Source: an uncultured Ruminococcus sp. (GTDB taxonomy: Bacteria; Bacillota; Clostridia; Oscillospirales; Acutalibacteraceae). Taken from it: 56,745 nucleotides of DNA. The stretch covers positions 1 through 56,745 of the forward strand of contig CACWKD010000032.1 in assembly GCA_902761345.1 (NCBI GenBank), read 5' to 3'. A model generated the notes under the pieces. It had not been told where the DNA came from and did not search any database. It saw only the letters and a list, made by a program, of their open reading frames with translations. A program made the translations under genes and the position numbers. Below, piece by piece: positions 21,180-54,542 of the stretch (the first letter of the stretch is position 1; each line of letters begins with the position of its first letter).

Positions 21180-21346
21180 ACAGTAATATTTTTTGTTTGC
21201 CAAAACCTACAAGATAATTAACAAATTAAACCTTTATTTAAAACAAATTGTAAAATTAATTTTTTTGTCGATGTAATTCTTTATTTTGTAACAATTTTGT
21301 TGTATAATAAGCATTAGTTTGCAGAAGAATATTCGGAGGTTTGAGC

Positions 21347-22480
21347 GTGGAAATTTATCTTGACAATAGTGCAACTACAAAGCCGTGCAAAGAGGCTGTC
21401 GACAAGATGATATATGTGCTTGAAAATGTTTACGGCAACCCCTCGTCGCTGCACACTCTCGGGCTGAATGCAGAAAAAGAAGTTACTGCCGCAAGAAAAA
21501 TCACTGCCAAACAGTTAGGCGCAGAGGCTGATGAAATATACTTTACAAGCGGCGGCACAGAGGCGAATAACACTGCGGTTTTCGGGGCGGCTTATGCAAG
21601 AAGAAAAACGGGGAACAGGATCGTTACCACTGCTATTGAGCATTCATCTGTATATGAAAGCTGTAAGGAGCTTGAACGTCAGGGGTTTGAGGTGATATTT
21701 CTTGAACCCGAAAGAAACGGAAATATTTCAGCAGAGCAGCTTGCTGCGGCGATAGATAAAAATACGATACTTGTTTCGGTTATGATGATCAATAACGAAA
21801 CGGGTGTAAGGCTGCCTGTTGATAAGATCTCAAAGATAATTAAGAAAAATAACGCCCCTGCGCTGTTCCACTGCGACGCTGTTCAGGCGTTCGGAAAAGT
21901 ACCTGTAAAGCCCTCAAAAATAGGAGCAGACCTTTTAAGCGTATCTTCTCATAAGATACACGGGCCAAAGGGAGTAGGCGCATTGTACATTAAAAAAGGC
22001 ACTTATATCAAGCCTATTTTGTACGGCGGAGAGCAACAGAAAAAAATACGTCCCGGAACAGAAACTGTACCGCTGATTTGCGGATTTGGTGCGGCAATAG
22101 AAAATATAGGCAGTATGTCGGAAAATATGAATAAAGCTTCACTGCTTCACGATTATGCCGTAAAACGATTGTCTGAGATAAGCGGTGTTGAAATAAATTC
22201 TCCCGATGACGGTTTGCCGTACATACTCAACATCTCCGCAGTAGGCGTCAGAAGCGAAACTATGCTGCACTTTCTTGAAAAACAGGGCGTTTATATATCG
22301 AGCGGTTCAGCTTGCGCAAAGGGTAAGAAAAGTCACGTTCTTACTGCAATGGGACTTGACGGCGCAAGAATAGATTCGGCGCTGAGGATAAGTTTTTCAA
22401 AGTATTCGGAAATATCCGAGATAGATACTCTGGCGGCTTTTTTGCAGGAAGGTATGAGTACGCTTGTACATTCAAAATAA
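21347..22480 (+). CDS. iscS: Cysteine desulfurase (IscS/NifS-like)
   Basis: 377-residue PLP enzyme that takes sulfur from cysteine as a persulfide. EIYLDNSATTKPC opens the protein; TSGGTEANN, HCDAVQAFGK, then the PLP lysine in SVSSHKIHGPKG (Lys203). The sulfur-carrying Cys323 is in SSGSACAKGKKSH. GTG 21347 is chosen because CGGAGG lies 8 bases upstream; TTG 21341 would be too close. It is followed by thiI after 21 bases, so its main acceptor is probably ThiI for tRNA 4-thiouridine. Confidence 0.93.
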   Translation: MEIYLDNSATTKPCKEAVDKMIYVLENVYGNPSSLHTLGLNAEKEVTAARKITAKQLGAEADEIYFTSGGTEANNTAVFGAAYARRKTGNRIVTTAIEHSSVYESCKELERQGFEVIFLEPERNGNISAEQLAAAIDKNTILVSVMMINNETGVRLPVDKISKIIKKNNAPALFHCDAVQAFGKVPVKPSKIGADLLSVSSHKIHGPKGVGALYIKKGTYIKPILYGGEQQKKIRPGTETVPLICGFGAAIENIGSMSENMNKASLLHDYAVKRLSEISGVEINSPDDGLPYILNISAVGVRSETMLHFLEKQGVYISSGSACAKGKKSHVLTAMGLDGARIDSALRISFSKYSEISEIDTLAAFLQEGMSTLVHSK

Positions 22481-22501: not shown

Positions 22502-23674
22502 ATGAAAGAGATAATCCTTGCTAAGGTTGGCGAAACAGCGCTCAAGGGACTTAACAGAAAGAACTTTGAGGATATGCTGATAAAAAACATAAAAAGAAAA
22601 CTACATAAGCTGGGCAGATTTGAGGTTGTGTCGTCACAATCTACAATAAGAATCACTCCGCTCGATGATGATATAGATATGGACGATACAGCGCAGGCTG
22701 TCGGTCAGGTTTTCGGTATAGTGGCATACTCGAGAGCGTGTATTGCTCCCAAAGACCTTGAAGAAATAAAAAACGCTGCCGCTGAGTATCTGTCGGATAT
22801 TTTCGAGGATAACGTATCGTTTAAGGTTGAATCAAAGCGTTCGGATAAAAAATTCCCCTACGGCTCGCCTGAGATCTCAAAGGCAGTCGGAGGATTTCTT
22901 GCGGATACCTTCCCGAATACAACGGTAGACGTTCATGATCCCGATGTTATCGTAACCGTTGAGGTAAGAGATTTTGCCGCATATATTCATGCAAATGTAA
23001 TAGAGGGTGCGGGAGGCTTGCCTGTCGGTACGGGAGGTAAAGCCGCAATTCTTATCAGCGGTGGAATAGATAGTCCAGTTGCCGCATATATGATGGCAAA
23101 AAGGGGCGTTGAGCTTACAGCGATACATTTTGCAAGTCCGCCGTACACAAGCGACAGAGCAGAGGAAAAAGTAAAAACACTTCTGGAGCTTGTATCGGAA
23201 TATTCGGGCAAGATGACAATGTATACAGTCCCGTTTACAAAAATACAGGAGCAGATACAGAAAAACTGCCCCGAGGAGCTTTTCACTATCATAATGAGAA
23301 GACTTATGATGAATATTTCCAACCGTATAGCCGAGCAAAACGGCTGTCAGGCATTGATAACGGGAGAGAGTTTGGGTCAGGTTGCAAGTCAGACAATAGG
23401 CGCGCTTGCGTGTACCGATGAGGTGGCGCAGATACCTGTTTTCAGACCCCTTATAGGAATGGATAAGAAAGAGATCATCGCAATTGCGCATAAGATAAAC
23501 ACCTTTGAAACCTCGTGTCTGCCATATGAGGACTGCTGTACGGTGTTTACTCCAAGACACCCAAGAACAAGACCTAAGCTTGATTTGGTAAGAAAAGCTG
23601 AGGCAAGCGTGGATTGGGAGGATATGATAAATGAGGCTGTTGAGAACTTAAAAGTTACAAAAATAGGCGAGTAA
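22502..23674 (+). CDS. thiI: tRNA 4-thiouridine synthetase ThiI
   Basis: 390 residues. It adenylates U8 of tRNA and inserts sulfur from the persulfide of the upstream desulfurase. N-terminal ferredoxin-like/THUMP domains (KVGETALKGLNRKNFE, then EVRDFAAYIHANVIEGAGGLPVGTGGK as consecutive pieces), then the PP-loop ILISGGIDSPVAAYMMAKRG at about 180-199. The C-terminus has TGESLGQVASQT and TCLPYEDCC-like SCLPYEDCCTVFTPRHP. There is no C-terminal rhodanese domain, as in the Bacillus-type enzyme that depends on a dedicated partner. Confidence 0.96.
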   Translation: MKEIILAKVGETALKGLNRKNFEDMLIKNIKRKLHKLGRFEVVSSQSTIRITPLDDDIDMDDTAQAVGQVFGIVAYSRACIAPKDLEEIKNAAAEYLSDIFEDNVSFKVESKRSDKKFPYGSPEISKAVGGFLADTFPNTTVDVHDPDVIVTVEVRDFAAYIHANVIEGAGGLPVGTGGKAAILISGGIDSPVAAYMMAKRGVELTAIHFASPPYTSDRAEEKVKTLLELVSEYSGKMTMYTVPFTKIQEQIQKNCPEELFTIIMRRLMMNISNRIAEQNGCQALITGESLGQVASQTIGALACTDEVAQIPVFRPLIGMDKKEIIAIAHKINTFETSCLPYEDCCTVFTPRHPRTRPKLDLVRKAEASVDWEDMINEAVENLKVTKIGE

Positions 23675-23861: not shown

Positions 23862-25874
23862 TTGAAAGCGGAAATTTACTCTGTAATGGATAAGTCCTTC
23901 AATCCGAAAACGCTTGACAAGAAGATGAATTCGGTTACAAAACAGCTTCGAGACGCTGATATAGAAATTTTGTATAAAACAGATCTCGAAGCAGATAAAA
24001 TAAAGCTGCTGGAGGCTCTCAGACAAAGCTACGCAACAGACGAGGGTATTCAGCTGATCATAATAGCAAACGCGCTTGACGGAACCGCACAGTGCGATAC
24101 GATAAAGCTTTTCAAAAAACTGTGTCCAAAGCATACCGAACGAACAGACGCAGACGATGAACAGACAGATGTATCCGAATATAAAGACAAAGGCGGTCTT
24201 GACGATCTTGCAACAGAATACGATCGTGACGCTAAATCAGCGAAAAAAAGTTCGAAGAAAAAGTCTAAAAAATCAAAAGCAAAAGAAAAACCTAAAGAAA
24301 CATCAAGAGTTGTAAATGAGATATGGTCAACAGGCGATTTGGGTAAGGGATATGAGGGCTGTTTTATGCTTTATTCCGATAAGCTTGTTTTAGCTCTTCC
24401 AAAGGAATCTCTTACAAAGGTATCTACTGCCGATATGATTATTTCGGGAGCAAAGAAAGCTACTTCCGCAAGAGGAATTACAACAGGTAATCTTGTAGGA
24501 GGCAAGATCACAGATCACTTTGATTACTATTCTATCGCTCAGAATGACTATAAATCAAAGAAAAAGAAAGGCTTCCTTGCAGGAATTATCCCGATGCCCG
24601 GAGATAAGCCGCTTGAAGTAGTAAGAAAAGTAATTCTTATGGCGGCAACAATAACATTTGCTATAACTGCCGTTATTCTCTGTAAGCTTTTGTTTATCGA
24701 GCCTGCTCAAGTTGAGGATAAGTACAACGAAGTAAGAGAGATTATGCACAAAGTAGATGTCAATGATGACGAAACAGATCCCGCAGTTAAAAAGGCTAAC
24801 AGATTTGAAAAACTGCGTGCAATAAATCCGGAAATAATGGGTTGGCTGTATATTCCAAAAACGACATATATAGATTATCCTGTGCTTGAACATAAGGGCG
24901 ATGGCCCGAACTCCCAATTTTATTTGTGGAGAGATTACACGGGCGGCGATTCAAAGTACGGATCACTGTTTATAGATTATCGCTGTGAGGATAGCATTCA
25001 TTCCAAAAATATAATTATCCATGGTCATAATATGGATAACGGAATGGTGTTCCATCAGCTTTTAAGCTATTCGGACATTAATTTCTATAAAAATTCTCCG
25101 ATAATGCAGTTTGATACACCCGAGTATGACGCCGACTGGAAGATCATTTCTATATATAAGACAAATACACTCGGAGTACATGGTGAGTTCTTTAACTATC
25201 TGAGAGGTACTTTTGATAAAGAAGAGGACTTTATGGACTTCGTTTATAACACAATGGAAAGATCTCTGATAGATACGGGAGTTACCGTAAATGAGAACGA
25301 TCAGCTTTTGACCCTTTCAACTTGTTCATATGAGTTTAACGAATTCAGAACGGTTATTGTTGCAAGACGTGTACGCAAGGGCGAGGAATCATCGGTAGAT
25401 GTTTCAAAAGCTGCATATAATCCCGACGCTGTATGGCCTCAGTGCTATTATGCAAGAAACGGTGGAGTGAGAAAAGAGCTTACAAACTTTGTGACAGCTT
25501 GTAAAGCCAATCAGACTCCGTGGTATGACGGTGATTATAAGCTTGACGGAGTTGACTTCAGAAAGGTAAAGGATTCCGATACTGATACGGAAGAAGAAAC
25601 GGACACCGAGGAAGAAGAGGAAAACCAGGAGGAAGAAAGTCAAGAGGAAGAAAGTCACAAGGAGGAGAGCCACGAGGAGGAATCTCATGAGGAGGAATCT
25701 CACGAGGAACAAACAAGCAGTGAAGAAGAGCCATGGTCTGAACCGGAGCCGGAACCTGAACCGGAGCCTGTAAGCAGTGAAGAAGAGTCCTCATGGTATG
25801 AACCCGAGCCTGAACCCTCGGAACCTGAGCCGGAACTTGAAGAACCGTATTACGATGATACTACTCAGGAATAG
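23862..25874 (+). CDS. Class B-like sortase with cytoplasmic MoaB/CinA-like domain and acidic tail
   Basis: 670 residues, about three times a normal sortase. Residues 1-90 resemble a degenerate molybdopterin-binding (MoaB/CinA) fold (LRDADIEILYKTDLEADK, IQLIIIANALDG). A Lys/Ser-rich linker (124-145) and a basic domain follow, then a membrane helix at about 256-278 (VILMAATITFAITAVILCKLLF). The SrtB-type catalytic domain is at about 315-505: IIIHGHNM with His389, TLSTCSY with Cys488, and FNEFRTVIV with Arg496. After it, about 110 residues are Glu/Ser/Pro rich (EEESHEEESHEE, PEPEPEPEP). Start is TTG 23862 with AGGAGG upstream. Sortases join surface proteins to the wall or to each other. The cytoplasmic and acidic parts suggest a regulated or scaffolded form (inference). 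Candidate substrate: the protein at 53493. Confidence 0.85.
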   Translation: MKAEIYSVMDKSFNPKTLDKKMNSVTKQLRDADIEILYKTDLEADKIKLLEALRQSYATDEGIQLIIIANALDGTAQCDTIKLFKKLCPKHTERTDADDEQTDVSEYKDKGGLDDLATEYDRDAKSAKKSSKKKSKKSKAKEKPKETSRVVNEIWSTGDLGKGYEGCFMLYSDKLVLALPKESLTKVSTADMIISGAKKATSARGITTGNLVGGKITDHFDYYSIAQNDYKSKKKKGFLAGIIPMPGDKPLEVVRKVILMAATITFAITAVILCKLLFIEPAQVEDKYNEVREIMHKVDVNDDETDPAVKKANRFEKLRAINPEIMGWLYIPKTTYIDYPVLEHKGDGPNSQFYLWRDYTGGDSKYGSLFIDYRCEDSIHSKNIIIHGHNMDNGMVFHQLLSYSDINFYKNSPIMQFDTPEYDADWKIISIYKTNTLGVHGEFFNYLRGTFDKEEDFMDFVYNTMERSLIDTGVTVNENDQLLTLSTCSYEFNEFRTVIVARRVRKGEESSVDVSKAAYNPDAVWPQCYYARNGGVRKELTNFVTACKANQTPWYDGDYKLDGVDFRKVKDSDTDTEEETDTEEEEENQEEESQEEESHKEESHEEESHEEESHEEQTSSEEEPWSEPEPEPEPEPVSSEEESSWYEPEPEPSEPEPELEEPYYDDTTQE

Positions 25875-25885
25875 GTTATAGATAA

Positions 25886-25922
25886 AAATAAAGGGCGAGC
25901 GTACATAGTGCGTTCCCCTTTT
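25886..25922 (+). terminator. Terminator after the sortase gene
   Basis: AAAGGGCGAGCGTA...AGTGCGTTCCCC followed by TTTTTT. The stem is imperfect but the T tract is strong. The next gene starts 20 bases later, so some read-through is likely. Confidence 0.6.
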
Positions 25923-25941
25923 TTGCAGGGAGGGAAAAATA

Positions 25942-26541
25942 TTGGTTTGCAGTATTATATACTATATCGCTTATAAAACAGGCTATATACAAAGAGCTAT
26001 TAGCAAGAAGCTTGCAGGGGTAAAGAATTTGACATTGGGAAATTCCGTTGCAGCAGTATCGCGGGATGACTTCTGCTCAAAATTTCAAAAAGCACTGCAG
26101 AATTCTGATTTTATCATAGTAATAGGAGGTCTGAGCGCAGGAAGTGACAGGAACGTAATGACTGTACTTTCAGACTATGTAAACGATACGGAAATGGAGA
26201 TCACATTTAACAAACGTGTGCTTAATCCTGTGGGAGGCAAGGACGGGTATCTTATAAGAAGTCTGAATAAATATATTGCGGTATTGCCTGATGACTATGA
26301 TCAGGTGGATAAGATGTTTGGAAGCGAGCTGCTCAAAAATATTGATATAAGTCCCGATACAGCCGCTGAACTTCCGGAACCTGTTATTACTCATACGGTA
26401 GTGTTTGCCCCCGAACAGTACGATCCGCTTGAACAGCTTAGCAGGAAAAAATCAGTTAATCCGTTTGTAATAGCAGCGGTGGTTTTCGGAGCGTTGACGG
26501 TTGCGGCAGCATCGGTATGGATAATTTTGCAATATTTGTAA
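25942..26541 (+). CDS. Membrane-anchored MoaB/CinA-like domain protein
   Basis: 199 residues, TTG start at 25942 with AGGGAGG 9 bases upstream. The core contains SDFIIVIGGLSAGSDRNVM (about 54-72), which matches the GG-x-G...D loop of molybdopterin-binding MoaB/Mog/CinA domains. The N-terminus includes KLAGVKNLTLGNSVAA. A C-terminal helix (NPFVIAAVVFGALTVAAASVWIILQYL, about 173-199) anchors it with the domain in the cytoplasm. The sortase upstream has a related, more degenerate N-terminal domain, so the two cytoplasmic domains may interact. No molybdenum-cofactor genes are near, so a binding or signalling role is more likely than cofactor synthesis (inference). Confidence 0.6.
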   Translation: MVCSIIYYIAYKTGYIQRAISKKLAGVKNLTLGNSVAAVSRDDFCSKFQKALQNSDFIIVIGGLSAGSDRNVMTVLSDYVNDTEMEITFNKRVLNPVGGKDGYLIRSLNKYIAVLPDDYDQVDKMFGSELLKNIDISPDTAAELPEPVITHTVVFAPEQYDPLEQLSRKKSVNPFVIAAVVFGALTVAAASVWIILQYL

Positions 26542-26623
26542 AATAAATTTGTTGTTCCTATTGCAGGAGTTACCGCTTTCGTAGTAAAATATTAAGGCAA
26601 AGTTGTATGAGAGGACAGTGATT

Positions 26624-27688
26624 ATGAAAAAGTCAAATAAACTATTAAAAACACTATTGGGTATCGTGATAGTGGCGGTACTTGCTGCGGCAGGCGGTGT
26701 TGTGTATATTAGCGTAAACGAATACAAGCCCGATGATACACAGGATATACTTGTACAGGGAGCGACAACGAAGCCTATATCACCCGGAGATACTGTAACT
26801 GCGTTGACTTATTCTATCGGCTTTGGAATACACGATAACAGCTTTGACTGTAAGGCTGAGGGCGGCACTATGAGTATGGCTGCCGATGAAAATGTTATAG
26901 CACAGAATATTGAGCCGATACTCTTTAATATAAAATCTGCCGACCCCGATATTGTTTTTTTGCAGGAGGTTGACAGAGATTCAAAGAGAAGCTTTAACTG
27001 TAACGAGGAGGAAATGATTTCCTCGGATTTAGAGGATTATAACAGCGGTTTTGCAAACAATCAGCTTTGCAGCTATGTGCCTGTTGGTTTATCGGGAAAA
27101 ACAGACGCAGGACTTCAAACTCTTACAAGGCTTTATATAGAGGAAAAGGGAGAGAGAGTATCACTGCCCGAGGCGGAAAAATGGCCTGAAAGTACAATAG
27201 GAACAAAGGAATGTATGCTTGTCGAGAGAGTAGAGCTGAAAGACAGTTCAAAGCAGCTTGTGCTGATAAATGTACAGCTTACACAGAATGATACAAACCT
27301 TGAACAGTACAAGGAGCTTGCAAAGTTTATGCAAATGGAGTTCGCAAACGGAAATTATGTTATAGCAGGCGGTAACTTTAACGCTATGCTGCCGTCTGTA
27401 AGCGCTGCAAAATACCCCGCGCTTGAGGTACAGGGTTTCTATCCTCAGCAGCTTCCGATGAGTGTGCTTACGGGAGGCTGGAAATATTGTACAGATGATA
27501 CTTGCCCCACAGCAAGACGCTGTGACAAAAAGTATGAGGAGGGCAACATAAAAAAAGTACAGACGTATGTTACAGACGGCTTTATATGTTCGCCGAATAC
27601 TATTGTTGAAGAAACAAAGACAATAGATACGGAATTTATAAGAGCGGCTCACAATCCTGTTTCGGTAAAAGTTACTCTTGTAAAATAA
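26624..27688 (+). CDS. Membrane-anchored EEP (endonuclease/exonuclease/phosphatase)-fold protein, probably inactive
   Basis: 354 residues from ATG 26624 (GAGAGGA upstream). An N-terminal anchor (LLGIVIVAVLAAAGGVVYI) leads to an extracellular EEP domain. Glu115 in FLQEVDRDSKRSF is kept and YVTDGF keeps Asp318. Other catalytic positions differ: TYSIGFG has Ser64 where YNIGFG-type enzymes have Asn; LINVQL has Gln218 where N-x-HL is usual; GGNFNA has Asn251 in place of the GDFN Asp; and AAHNPV replaces SDHNPV. So hydrolase activity is probably lost and the fold may bind lipid or phosphate headgroups (inference). A weak promoter TTGCAG-N18-TAAAAT may start at 26561. Confidence 0.72.
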   Translation: MKKSNKLLKTLLGIVIVAVLAAAGGVVYISVNEYKPDDTQDILVQGATTKPISPGDTVTALTYSIGFGIHDNSFDCKAEGGTMSMAADENVIAQNIEPILFNIKSADPDIVFLQEVDRDSKRSFNCNEEEMISSDLEDYNSGFANNQLCSYVPVGLSGKTDAGLQTLTRLYIEEKGERVSLPEAEKWPESTIGTKECMLVERVELKDSSKQLVLINVQLTQNDTNLEQYKELAKFMQMEFANGNYVIAGGNFNAMLPSVSAAKYPALEVQGFYPQQLPMSVLTGGWKYCTDDTCPTARRCDKKYEEGNIKKVQTYVTDGFICSPNTIVEETKTIDTEFIRAAHNPVSVKVTLVK

Positions 27689-27820: not shown

Positions 27821-29170
27821 ATGGCACTTTTCAATAAGAAACTTTGCGATATATGCGGCGGTTCAATGGGGCTTATTATTGACAATAAGGCAGCGGACGG
27901 TAACTTCTGTCACAACTGTGCGCATAAGCTTTCACCGTTTTTCCATGGAGCTAAGAACTCAACTTTGCAGCAGATACAGCAGCAGATCGCTTACAGAGAG
28001 CAGAACAAGCAGGCTTTAAACTTTTTCTCACCTACAAAGGTTATTGGAAATACGACAAAGGTATATATAGACGAAGCTAAGAGAAAGTTTGTAGTATCGA
28101 AGAAAAGCGACTACAAGTCCGAAAATGCAGATATTATAGATTTTTCGCAGGTACTCAGCGTAATTCCCGATGTGAAGGAGCATAAGAAAGAGCTTTATAT
28201 GAAAGACTCTGAGGGTCATAATAAATCCTACAATCCTCCGAGATATGATTATACATATGAGTTTATTATAAAAATAACCGTAAACTGCCAGTATTTCAAT
28301 GAGATTAAGTTTGAACTTACAGACAGCAGCAACCGTCCTAAGGGCAGAAATACTCAGGAGTATATGCAGTATGAGCAGATGGCTAACCAGATAGTAACAT
28401 ATCTCAAGGGCGGCACAGTACAAGGCGGAGTTATGGGCGGCATAGGTAATGCGGTAGGTTCTGTAATGGGCGGTACAGGCGGCTTAGGCGGTGTTGTAGG
28501 CGCTGTTATGGGCGGTATGAACAACAACGGTATGGGCAATATGAACGCTATGAACAACGGCATGGGCAATATGAACGCTATGAACAACGGCATGGGCAAC
28601 ATGAACGGTATGAATAACGGCATGGGCAGCATGAACGGTATGAATAACGGCATGGGTAATATGAACGGTATGAATAATAACGCTATGGGTTCAAATGGAC
28701 TTGGCGGTATTGTAGGCTCTGTAATGGGCGGTGCAAACGGCGGTAATGTCGGCGGCGGTTTAGGCGGAGTTGTCGGTGCGGCTATGGGTGCTTTGGGACT
28801 TGGCACTATGGGTGGTCAGCAGAACAATATGGGTTACGACCAGACTAACGCATACGGTCAGCAGAACAATATGGGTTACAATCAGAATAACGCATACGGT
28901 CAGCAGAACAATATGGGTTACAATCAGAATAACGCATACGGTCAGCAGAACAATATGGGTTACAACCAGACTAACGCATACGGTCAGCAGAACAATATGG
29001 GTTACAACCAGAATAACGGATTTGGTCAGCAGAATAATATGGGTTACAATCAGACTAACGGATTTGGTCAGCAGAATTTCGGTATGGGCGGGTTCCAGTG
29101 GGTATGCCCTAACTGCGGTACTACTAATACTGCTGATTATTGTCAAAGCTGCGGCAGACAAAAGGGCTGA
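27821..29170 (+). CDS. DUF4428-like zinc-ribbon protein with N/Q/G/M-rich tandem repeats
   Basis: 449 residues from ATG 27821 (GAGAGG upstream). Residues 1-40 form a zinc ribbon (CDICGG...CHNCAHKL) followed by a PH-like ~110-residue domain (KVYIDEAKRKFVV, YEFIIKITVNCQYFNEIKFEL), the usual DUF4428 arrangement. About residues 195-425 are low complexity: glycine-rich GGIGNAVGSVMGG, then 10-residue NNGMGNMNAM repeats, more glycine-rich sequence, and 14-residue GQQNNMGYNQNNAY repeats. The C-terminus is a second zinc ribbon, WVCPNCGTTNTADYCQSCG. The N/Q/Y/M composition is prion-like and could drive condensate formation (inference). No signal peptide is seen, so it is probably cytoplasmic. The strong promoter suggests high expression. 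Confidence 0.8.
   Translation: MALFNKKLCDICGGSMGLIIDNKAADGNFCHNCAHKLSPFFHGAKNSTLQQIQQQIAYREQNKQALNFFSPTKVIGNTTKVYIDEAKRKFVVSKKSDYKSENADIIDFSQVLSVIPDVKEHKKELYMKDSEGHNKSYNPPRYDYTYEFIIKITVNCQYFNEIKFELTDSSNRPKGRNTQEYMQYEQMANQIVTYLKGGTVQGGVMGGIGNAVGSVMGGTGGLGGVVGAVMGGMNNNGMGNMNAMNNGMGNMNAMNNGMGNMNGMNNGMGSMNGMNNGMGNMNGMNNNAMGSNGLGGIVGSVMGGANGGNVGGGLGGVVGAAMGALGLGTMGGQQNNMGYDQTNAYGQQNNMGYNQNNAYGQQNNMGYNQNNAYGQQNNMGYNQTNAYGQQNNMGYNQNNGFGQQNNMGYNQTNGFGQQNFGMGGFQWVCPNCGTTNTADYCQSCGRQKG
28523..28672 (+). repeat. 30-bp tandem repeat inside the zinc-ribbon gene
   Basis: Five near-identical 30-base units starting AACAACGG at 28523, 28553, 28583, 28613 and 28643 encode NNGMGNMNAM/NNGMGNMNGM. In-frame copy-number change would alter protein length without a frameshift. 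Confidence 0.9.
28814..29083 (+). repeat. 42-bp tandem repeat inside the zinc-ribbon gene
   Basis: Units start GGTCAGCAG at 28814, 28856, 28898, 28940, 28982 and 29024, with a partial unit at 29066. Each encodes the 14-residue GQQNNMGYNQNNAY type. The copies are very alike, indicating recent expansion. Confidence 0.92.
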
Positions 29171-53433: not shown

Positions 53434-53492
53434 GTAGATACTGATATATGCCTTTAAAAAAGGCGGACTTTATTAACAGGAGGAATACTATT

Positions 53493-54542
53493 ATGAATAA
53501 GAAGTTTATCAGTGTTATTATGGCTGCTATCCTTGCTGTTTCTTCAGCTGCTATTTGTGCAAGTGCTGCTGAGGTAGAGGTTGAGAAGTCAGGCGACACA
53601 ACAGGTAAGATCAGATTTGATTTGGGCGACTGGAATCATGATGATAACATTGCTTTCTACATTTGGGCAAAGAATGGCGATGAAACACGTCATCTTTCAA
53701 AAGAGGGCTGGGAGCCTGATGATAACTGGGGTCGTAAGAAGCTTTACGGTGAACATGTTGAGGGTGAAGACGGTATCGTTGAGTCTTATGAAATCGAGTT
53801 CTGGGACGGTTGGGATTACTATGTAATTTTCCACGATGTAAACACAGATGCTCAGACATATGACTGCGTTATTACACCTGCTGCTATCGGTCAGACTGCT
53901 CATCTTACAGGTAATGTACTTGAGAACCCTGTAGACAGTGCTAAGACTGTTATCGAGGCTAACTTTGACGGTGTTGACGGTTGCGGTCCTTATCTCCAAA
54001 TCACATCTACAGGTAATATCTGCGGTAGTGCTAAGGCATCTCAGGATGACGGTACAAAGATCGTTGGTGACTATGTATTTGAGAAGATGGGTGCTTTAGA
54101 TAAGAACGGTGAAGAGTGCTGCACAGAGGATAAGGTACAGAACGCTATCAACGTATTCGGTACAACAGCTGATGATGTATGGGCTTACTTCCAGACAAAA
54201 GAAGGTCATGAGGAGAAGGACGAAGAAGCTAAGAAGCTTATTAAGCCTACTGAGGAGACAACAGACAGCGATACAAGTTCTAACAGTGAGGCTTCTTCAA
54301 GCTCAAGCAGCTCAAGTTCAAGCTCAAGCAGCAGCTCAGGCTCAACAGGCGGTTCAAACACAGGTTCTTCTAAGTCTGCAGGCGGTTCAACAGGTACAGC
54401 AGGTACATCAAGCACAGCAGCTTCAACAGGCGATACAACAACAACTGAGACAGGTGACGCAAGAGGCGTTGCAGCATTTGCAACAGTTCTCCTTGGCGCA
54501 GCAGCTGCAGTAATCGCTACACGCAAGAAGATTGAGGAGTAA
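53493..54542 (+). CDS. Secreted single-module protein with Ser-rich linker and sorting-signal-like C-terminus
   Basis: 349 residues from ATG 53493 (AGGAGG). Signal peptide at 1-26 (FISVIMAAILAVSSAAICASAA). One module at about 38-255: IRFDLGDWNHDDNIAFYIWA, YYVIFHDVNTDAQTYDCVITPAAIGQTAH and NPVDSAKT in the first half, then GCGPYLQITSTGN, ECCTEDKV and FGTTADDVW in the second. The first half resembles a CBM25/26-type starch-binding fold in aromatic spacing (weak). A Ser-rich linker (about 270-300) and Gly/Thr stretch follow. The C-terminus is TTETGDARGV, a hydrophobic helix FATVLLGAAAAVIA and TRKKIEE, like a sortase sorting signal with a non-LPXTG motif. It could be a substrate of the sortase at 23862 (inference). 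Its module is repeated in the next gene. Confidence 0.78.
   Translation: MNKKFISVIMAAILAVSSAAICASAAEVEVEKSGDTTGKIRFDLGDWNHDDNIAFYIWAKNGDETRHLSKEGWEPDDNWGRKKLYGEHVEGEDGIVESYEIEFWDGWDYYVIFHDVNTDAQTYDCVITPAAIGQTAHLTGNVLENPVDSAKTVIEANFDGVDGCGPYLQITSTGNICGSAKASQDDGTKIVGDYVFEKMGALDKNGEECCTEDKVQNAINVFGTTADDVWAYFQTKEGHEEKDEEAKKLIKPTEETTDSDTSSNSEASSSSSSSSSSSSSSSGSTGGSNTGSSKSAGGSTGTAGTSSTAASTGDTTTTETGDARGVAAFATVLLGAAAAVIATRKKIEE

Follow-up and report, generated by a model that had tools for sequence, protein, structure and literature searches.

Sortases are, to our knowledge, generally regarded as constitutive enzymes without a cytoplasmic part to speak of. We analysed a stretch of 56,745 nucleotides from an uncultured Ruminococcus sp. 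(contig CACWKD010000032.1, contig C32 of a 2.09 Mb assembly that is 89% complete; hereafter the window), in which the gene following iscS and thiI encodes P0001, a class B sortase fused to what appears to be a relic of the metabolic protein CinA. Class B sortases (model TIGR03064; SrtB of Bacillus anthracis, Clostridium difficile and Staphylococcus aureus) resemble P0001 in the His-Cys-Arg domain and the N-terminal membrane anchor. Unlike them, P0001 adds about 240 folded or linker residues in the cytoplasm and a lengthy acidic tail. Of 47 class B-like sortases compared that are unlinked (in the sense given below), one truncated row has 163 residues and the rest have 241-417. CinA, in which a COG1058 domain is joined to the nicotinamide mononucleotide (NMN) deamidase PncC, shares with P0001 the MoCF fold, the gene position and fused or adjacent intermediates, whereas P0001 lacks the catalytic acids, both signature motifs, KH and PncC, and is membrane-anchored and fused to a sortase.

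The nearest functional parallel to P0001, by analogy, is Glp/GlpR of Corynebacterium (PMC10522489), where, as with gephyrin, a MoCF-containing metabolic protein has been repurposed as a membrane scaffold. Glp, however, was repurposed from a molybdotransferase and its membrane receptor is a separate protein (PMC10522489), while the domain in P0001 appears CinA-derived and is covalently joined to the membrane enzyme. In plants an FAD synthetase carries, as P0001 does, a dead COG1058-type domain as fusion partner (PMC9678776, PMC3680494), but there the active half is a cofactor enzyme (PMC9678776) and here a membrane transpeptidase. Within the literature searched, mostly outside subscription journals and judged by titles and the beginnings of abstracts, we found no description of a link between CinA and sortase, nor of this system under sortases combined with SpoIID, molybdopterin binding or gephyrin and cell division, class B sortases in Ruminococcus, or sortase fusions.

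The explanation of the locus as a whole that we favour, with a probability of roughly 60%, is that a CinA-derived pseudoenzyme domain sits on a class B sortase and pairs with a partner on the inner face of the membrane, so as to position or gate the transpeptidase. Sequence and synteny support the fusion itself, the apparent CinA origin, the loss of catalytic residues, the selection on the relic and a two-gene pair in sister lineages. The genes and parts concerned are the following.

21341..22480, + strand: iscS/nifS-type cysteine desulfurase, a synteny anchor (same upstream order in the genus, in sister lineages and in cinA-srtB loci)
22502..23674, + strand: thiI, a synteny anchor (cinA holds the next position in relatives)
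23862..25874, + strand: P0001, 670-residue fusion of MoCF relic and class B sortase, with a TTG start
23862..24134, + strand: P0001 MoCF lobe 1 (residues 1-91); K11, A44 and C78 are the equivalents of catalytic Glu11, Asp44 and Asp75, and N70-A71 that of the GG motif
24135..24305, + strand: P0001 hypervariable charged linker (residues 92-148) in place of the middle of the MoCF domain, recognized by 0/57 invariant columns, substitution rate and low model confidence
24306..24476, + strand: P0001 MoCF lobe 2 (residues 149-205); YEGCFMLYSDKLVLALPKESL aligns with CinA GTAPGC...GKxVxxLPGPPxE
24585..24629, + strand: P0001 cytoplasmic juxtamembrane motif IIPMPGDKPLEVVRK (residues 242-256), common to many cinA-linked sortases
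24630..24698, + strand: P0001 single membrane helix (residues 257-279), read from the sequence by eye, with the N-terminus inside by the positive-inside rule
24795..25376, + strand: P0001 extracellular class B sortase domain (residues 312-505) with H389, C488 and R496
25542..25871, + strand: P0001 Glu/Ser/Pro-rich tail (residues 561-670), unconserved in sequence (3/110 columns invariant)

P0001 passes the class B model TIGR03064 (163.5 bits; cut-off 153.75) and matches Pfam Sortase PF04203 at 2.1e-9; its best solved relatives are 2oqw and 1rz2. The catalytic H389, C488 (in TLSTC) and R496 are kept in 20/20 genus members compared. A preliminary description of this DNA had placed three genes here, a sortase, a small membrane protein and an EEP-fold protein, and all three lie at 23862..25874 and in the two frames downstream; it was also right about the sortase's intact His/Cys/Arg set and about the extracellular Glu/Ser/Pro tail of about 110 residues. 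The cytoplasmic N-terminus comes to some 256 residues, in which the MoCF-like domain occupies residues 1-91 and about 149-200, split by the linker. When the window's own genome and 39 relatives were searched, the whole architecture was found in 21/21 relatives of the same genus (the G018 copy lies in two contig fragments, and that of G013 is interrupted in its tail region by an in-frame stop), while other genera gave partial matches, from the membrane segment onward. The TTG start is shared by all 22 genus copies read; an AGGAGG-like site lies upstream of it in the window. The five closest named-genome records are rumen-project RUG assemblies labelled uncultured Clostridiales or Ruminococcus.

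The position of the P0001 gene is that of cinA. The order iscS-thiI-[gene] holds in the window and in 11/11 genus loci fetched with context, and iscS and thiI lie directly upstream in all six loci from outside the genus (G022, G023, G024, G027, G032 and G038). Three of these (G023, G024 and G032) read iscS-thiI-cinA-srtB, with the sortase gene directly after cinA; in G027 the two are one protein of 745 residues comprising MoCF, KH, PncC and sortase, and in G038 a 907-residue protein joins PncC to sortase. The 877-residue protein of G022 (L109:4867-7500) consists of a degenerate MoCF, KH, PncC with a good match, a hydrophobic segment and a sortase-like outer domain in which the catalytic Cys, His and Arg are replaced; it is a mirror image of the window's case.

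Gene content fits this origin. We did not find an ordinary intact MoCF domain in the window's genome or in the 21 genus relatives (22 genomes, several of them incomplete): Pfam MoCF had no match in the former, and in the latter matched proteins of the P0002 type described below, in eight relatives at 19.5-27.4 bits, one of them above the cut-off of 26.6. Outside the genus 14/18 relatives have a MoCF match at E < 1e-32. The other half of CinA is present as a stand-alone PncC frame of 161-230 residues in 20/22 genomes, namely 19/21 relatives and the window's own (a separate 164-residue frame at G000:C79), and the AESCTGG segment is kept in all eight genus PncC copies read.

Pfam detected no MoCF match in P0001 at E 1. 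A profile of the 22 genus N-domains, however, aligned by hhalign with a profile of eight intact CinA MoCF domains (seven free and one from the G027 fusion) with a probability of 95.5 (P = 1.4e-8, 157 columns), the match running across linker 92-148; the reversed-CinA control gave 0.5 (P = 0.11). The N-domains of the sister lineages, 21-28% identical to the window's, are intermediates between the genus and CinA, with a match of 98.6 (P = 1.4e-15) to the genus set and one of 78.8 (P = 1.7e-5) to CinA. AlphaFold2, given a 45-row alignment with sister and CinA rows, modelled the N-domain with a mean predicted local distance difference test score (pLDDT) of 79.6 and a predicted template-modelling score (pTM) of 0.77; ten-residue means reached at least 90 over residues 1-90 and 151-200. 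In a Foldseek search of the model against the Protein Data Bank (PDB), ranks 1-41 were all MoaB, Mog, Cnx1G, MoeA, gephyrin or CinA chains (best E 1.8e-4), with target-normalized template-modelling scores of 0.41-0.63 for the MoaB/Mog-type matches. The preliminary description had suspected a MoaB/CinA-like fold at the sortase N-terminus and proposed such a search as its check; profile and fold comparison bear out the fold, and MoaB/Mog-like matches were what came back, but the domain is not confined to residues 1-90 as had been thought. Judging from sequence and gene order together, the N-domain very probably derives from the first domain of cinA (MoCF/COG1058). This origin, and the order-wide linkage and fusion of the sortase subfamily with CinA, are what the preliminary description missed.

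The parental active site has not been kept. COG1058 proteins are characterized by the motifs GxEx3G and GGL/IGPx3D and the catalytic acids Glu11, Asp44 and Asp75 (PMC3680494). In our alignment of 20 of the 22 genus rows (without L018 and L023), 10 sister rows, 8 intact CinA rows and 7 fused CinA rows (without L146), these three acids are present in 8/8 intact CinA each, in 0/20, 8/20 and 0/20 genus N-domains, in 0/10 each of the sister N-domains, and in 1, 1 and 3 of the fused rows. The P0001 N-domain has neither of the two motifs nor the acid set of a COG1058 ADP-ribose pyrophosphatase, and P0001 does not contain the PncC domain that CinA carries in the same protein.

The relic is nevertheless under strong purifying selection, constrained like the sortase domain. 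We compared 20 of the 22 genus proteins (leaving out L006, with an early in-frame stop, and L023, cut by a contig end). In residues 1-91, 56/91 columns are invariant and the mean nonsynonymous distance (dN) is 0.083; for residues 149-227 the mean dN is 0.113, and the sortase domain has 109/194 invariant columns and a mean dN of 0.132. The linker, by comparison, has 0/57 invariant columns and a mean dN of 0.71, and the tail a mean dN of 0.64. Synonymous sites are near saturation (for either lobe and for the sortase domain, a synonymous distance, dS, was defined in 62-75 of 190 pairs), which makes dN safer here than dN/dS. Loss of the catalytic acids combined with strong constraint is thus the pattern of a kept function other than the parental reaction.

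Downstream of P0001 lies what appears to be a second degenerate, membrane-tethered MoCF protein.

25897..25915, + strand: terminator-like stem with a T-run, between the sortase gene and the P0002 gene
25942..26541, + strand: P0002, degenerate MoCF domain with a C-terminal membrane helix (about residues 171-199)

P0002 has 199 residues, and its C-terminal helix was identified by eye. It stays below the Pfam MoCF cut-off (17.9 bits versus 26.6, E 0.0026), which its G011 homologue passes at 27.4 bits, and a sequence search against the PDB gave one chance-like match only. As a family (20 of 21 homologues, without L040), P0002 proteins match the CinA MoCF domain by hhalign at 96.7 (P = 3.8e-10, 87 columns), with a reversed control on the wider set at 0.6 (P = 0.1); GGL is kept in 20/20 rows and Asp at the catalytic position in 0/20. 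The MoaB/CinA-like domain on a C-terminal helix that the preliminary description saw here is therefore supported by profile comparison. We considered whether P0002 descends from the degenerate CinA-SpoIID gene of G023 and G024 described below, a derivation that hhalign did not support (1.2).

Homologues of P0002 occur in 20/21 genus relatives, the genome without a match being only 68% complete. In sister lineages a P0002-type gene stands directly after the sortase gene, or after its tandem second copy (L133, L135, L136 and L139), in 11/11 loci (L127-L136 and L139) by a search with a profile that included eight of these loci, first found by blastp; L130, L131 and L134 were found by the profile only, and the L134 protein has no visible helix. 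The free-cinA loci searched with the profile (E 0.01) contained no separate P0002 copy. Within the genus, P0002 lies within 0.6 kb of the sortase in 5/11 relatives that have both on one contig. The preliminary description would have been refuted had relatives not kept the three genes together, and the outcome is mixed: the sortase/P0002 pair stands in the sister loci, adjacency in the genus is limited to 5/11, and no EEP homologue was seen in the sister loci.

P0001 is one end state of a wider association of CinA with sortase and, in part, SpoIID. A scan of named genomes gave at least 556 candidate sortase loci, the best 80 of which we labelled. Thirty-three are linked to thiI, cinA or pncC or bear the relic, one is a tandem second copy, and 46 have no link in the DNA examined. 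The linked loci comprise 5 of the window's genus, 10 sister relics, 5 with free cinA, 3 with free pncC, 5 CinA-sortase fusions, 4 CinA-sortase-SpoIID fusions and 1 sortase after thiI without an N-domain. The triple fusions are single proteins of 948-1252 residues (L141, L145, L146 and L147); that of L145, 948 residues long, is from Merdimmobilis hominis Marseille-P2769T (Oscillospiraceae). Tandem second sortase genes were seen beside a relic-type or fused sortase in L133, L135, L136, L139 and L105.

In a draw across the order, 175/197 genomes have CinA or PncC. At least 20/151 placed CinA/PncC genes (149 of the places listed for the order sample, with the window's own genome left out, and 2 others) lie within 3 kb of a sortase, and six of these share its frame; the count is a lower bound, as 67 sortase rows, from 61/100 genomes, had been entered. 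A juxtamembrane pattern, chosen after inspection, is present in 24/38 linked and 0/47 unlinked sortases, and the motif (such as FIPxxGDxPLEVxRK) is already found in some sortases with a separate cinA or pncC. The sortase tree, quickly built, has many unresolved forks and a single very long row (G022), and we used only its starred branches. Linked versus unlinked rows need four changes on it (3 of 86 rows left out). The window's genus falls in a group of 19 rows (support 96 in the Shimodaira-Hasegawa-like approximate likelihood-ratio test, SH-aLRT) with the sister relics, L137 (a free full-length cinA upstream), L138, L136 (a tandem copy) and L140 (unlinked). The label of fused CinA-sortase is scattered, with six changes, at least three of them forced by starred branches, and therefore fusion or separation happened more than once.

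SpoIID-type proteins carry similar cytoplasmic parts. Directly after srtB in G023, G024, L152, L153 and L162 is a gene for a protein made of a degenerate CinA-like part, a hydrophobic segment and a SpoIID-like part; in L149 the CinA-like and SpoIID-like parts are separate genes. Genes with a degenerate CinA-like part and an outer SpoIID-like part are at:

L103:9145-11538
L104:1472-3847
L152:8722-10857
L162:8703-10928

Six such CinA-like cytoplasmic parts match full CinA by hhalign at 96.9 (P = 1.7e-10, 286 columns; reversed, 0.1), so that descendants of CinA form the cytoplasmic side of wall proteins of two kinds. Either half can be degenerate with the link still kept: the CinA part in the window's clade, the sortase-like part in G022, and the CinA joined to a SpoIID domain in G023 and G024. 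We tentatively raise the idea, to which we give rather less than even odds, that CinA-SrtB(-SpoIID) is an unrecognized inside-to-outside wall system of the order, with CinA or its dead descendants as the cytoplasmic half of membrane enzymes working on the wall, in which not catalysis but physical coupling was selected and the COG1058 dimer became, in the window's clade, a hetero-pair of one copy on the sortase and one on a helix.

Adjacent genes and more than one fusion event thus tie one subfamily of sortases to CinA, a protein that acts in competence and in the recycling of NAD; in some lineages the tie extends to a SpoIID-type protein. The window offers a clear case of a metabolic enzyme domain turned into a conserved membrane pseudoenzyme, and suggests that a dead metabolic enzyme has found a new use inside the cell, as a handle by which a surface enzyme is controlled or assembled. 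Should the coupling be functional, it would give the cytoplasmic state a route to control the anchoring of surface proteins in gut and rumen bacteria. The old question of a role of CinA beyond its two enzymatic activities also becomes testable, because the non-catalytic versions isolate that role.

How the fusion may work is suggested by CinA itself. In Thermus thermophilus CinA the COG1058 domains form a dimer, which has been proposed to pass by rotation from an open to a closed state and back (PMC4246079); because of this, the most likely mechanism would be pairing of the N-domain with P0002, or of the N-domain with itself. An ancestral CinA, made beside the sortase, may have come to contact it, and gene fusion would have made the contact permanent, after which the enzyme activity could be lost or moved out: the site residues of the ADP-ribose pyrophosphatase would have gone from the N-domain, and the NMN-deamidase half would have become the present separate pncC gene. 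The pseudoenzyme domain would face the cytoplasm, joined by one helix to a wall-facing transpeptidase with an intact catalytic set. In the window's clade one MoCF copy remains on the sortase and another on a helix of its own, and the two could rebuild the former dimer; pairing would cluster the sortase or place it where its substrates leave the Sec machinery, and ligand or partner binding might gate it. That the cytoplasmic domains regulate or scaffold the sortase, as the preliminary description proposed, we infer, as we do the dimer pairing, the inside-to-outside control and the identity of the signal.

Several observations weigh against this interpretation. Against eight CinA N-termini that are degenerate and joined to sortases, the genus N-domains gave no hhalign match (0.5, P = 0.11), and AlphaFold2 run on genus sequences alone produced an unusable model (pLDDT 41), because these hold too little sequence diversity. 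The presence of CinA rows in the input of the usable model makes the structural result weaker as independent evidence, a circularity of which the profile and synteny evidence are free; the Foldseek superpositions are also loose, with a root-mean-square deviation of about 10-12 Å for MoaB-type entries, and only nine matches have E of 0.001 or less. The incompleteness of several genus assemblies weakens the argument from the absence of intact MoCF domains. Not every site residue has gone in the sister lineages, as Glu156, ribose-binding in T. thermophilus CinA and absent from the genus, is aligned with Glu in 6/10 sister rows. As for the partner, a terminator-like stem separates the P0001 and P0002 genes (the region has seven such stems against a shuffled mean of 6.3, near the chance number), and in 6/11 one-contig genus relatives P0002 is 5-7.4 kb from the sortase, beside the EEP gene. 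The direct comparison of the N-domain with P0002 is weak (hhalign 4.8 for the genus sets; 53.8, P = 1.3e-4, for the wider sets), so that their pairing is supported only by common CinA descent.

The relic might instead be a ligand sensor, which binds ADP-ribose, AMP or another metabolite of the NAD cycle without hydrolysing it and thereby switches the sortase, tying wall anchoring to the state of the NAD pool. The parent domain in CinA binds ADP-ribose, ATP and AMP (PMC4246079), intact CinA is linked to sortase in other lineages, and, as expected of a binding surface, residues 197-227 (AKKATSARGITTGNLVGGKITDHFDYYSIAQ) hardly vary within the genus. CinA and nearly all sister rows, however, have a gap at those residues, and every genus row lacks the GG motif and two of the three metal-site acids, while 12/20 lack the third; we hold this explanation to be unlikely. 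Active chemistry of a new kind, for instance through Cys78 or Cys167, appears less probable by far: C78, at the place of Asp75, is invariant in 20/20 genus rows and C167 in 22, but the C78 column holds E, S, Q, K or R in sister rows.

Compared with pairing on the inner membrane face, it is also improbable that gene order and translation coupling account for the whole, the fused stretch being an N-terminal anchor for membrane insertion without a specific function. Neighbouring genes fuse readily, the thiI-linked sortase of L138 does without any N-domain, and 131/151 placed CinA/PncC genes of the order sample have no entered sortase within 3 kb; yet a mere anchor would hardly keep 56/91 columns of residues 1-91 invariant among 20 species while the linker and tail vary freely, nor be expected where the fused label needs at least three changes on starred branches. 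Equally doubtful is a three-protein module that includes the EEP protein. EEP and P0002-type matches lie within 0.2 kb of each other in 13/20 and within 1.7 kb in 16/20 genus relatives that have both, but in six genus members this pair is 5-7.4 kb from the sortase, no EEP homologue was found in the sister loci (blastp E 1e-3), and the EEP homologues of G023 and G027 are on contigs other than that of the cinA-linked sortase.

The EEP protein is therefore treated as a neighbour, not as a defining part of the sortase module.

26624..27688, + strand: P0003, an exported protein of EEP fold in which two catalytic positions are replaced (a neighbour outside the core)

The ATG at 26624 fits the aligned relatives better than a start at 26603. 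P0003 is just under the Pfam EEP cut-off (23.1 versus 24.5 bits) and has GGNFN for GGDFN and AAHNP for SDHNP, thus lacking the GDxN and SDH of active EEP proteins. The preliminary description had counted several replaced catalytic residues; two positions do differ, but DG in place of DH, found in all 22 rows aligned (of 29 matches), is a family trait. EEP homologues are present in 21/21 genus relatives. Among 16 of them that were aligned, seven have both GGDFN and SDHNP, two more SDHNP only, two the window's motifs and five other substitutions in both, and some members of the genus have therefore lost the active site; the GD Asp and the DH are both retained in 5/5 rows that come from other genera or are paralogues.

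A phage origin of P0001 was considered and rejected: of the 20 records that tblastn gave against phages, none covers as much as 80% of P0001, and the five phage matches listed are confined to residues 241-534. The window's genome encodes proteins with LPxTG-type ends and has a second sortase at C77. Within the window, 53448-54542 encodes an exported protein ending in a sorting-signal-like TETGD segment, a hydrophobic stretch and RKK, a possible sortase substrate. By eye, the sortase tails of the window's genus are E/S/P-rich or built of ESERLESERL repeats, and the sister sortases of L128-L135 and L139 have C-terminal parts 300 residues long of apparently helical repeats with charged AEESRKAEESR-type runs; both may be outer stalks. 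Between 36750 and 41137 are exported amylase-like and cell-wall-hydrolase-like proteins with dockerin-like repeats at their ends (by eye), which suggest an amylosome-like system. The protein encoded at 27824-29170 is a DUF4428 protein; it contains long repeats of GNMNxMNNGM and NNMGYNQNNAYGQQ, and its C-terminal end is zinc-ribbon-like.

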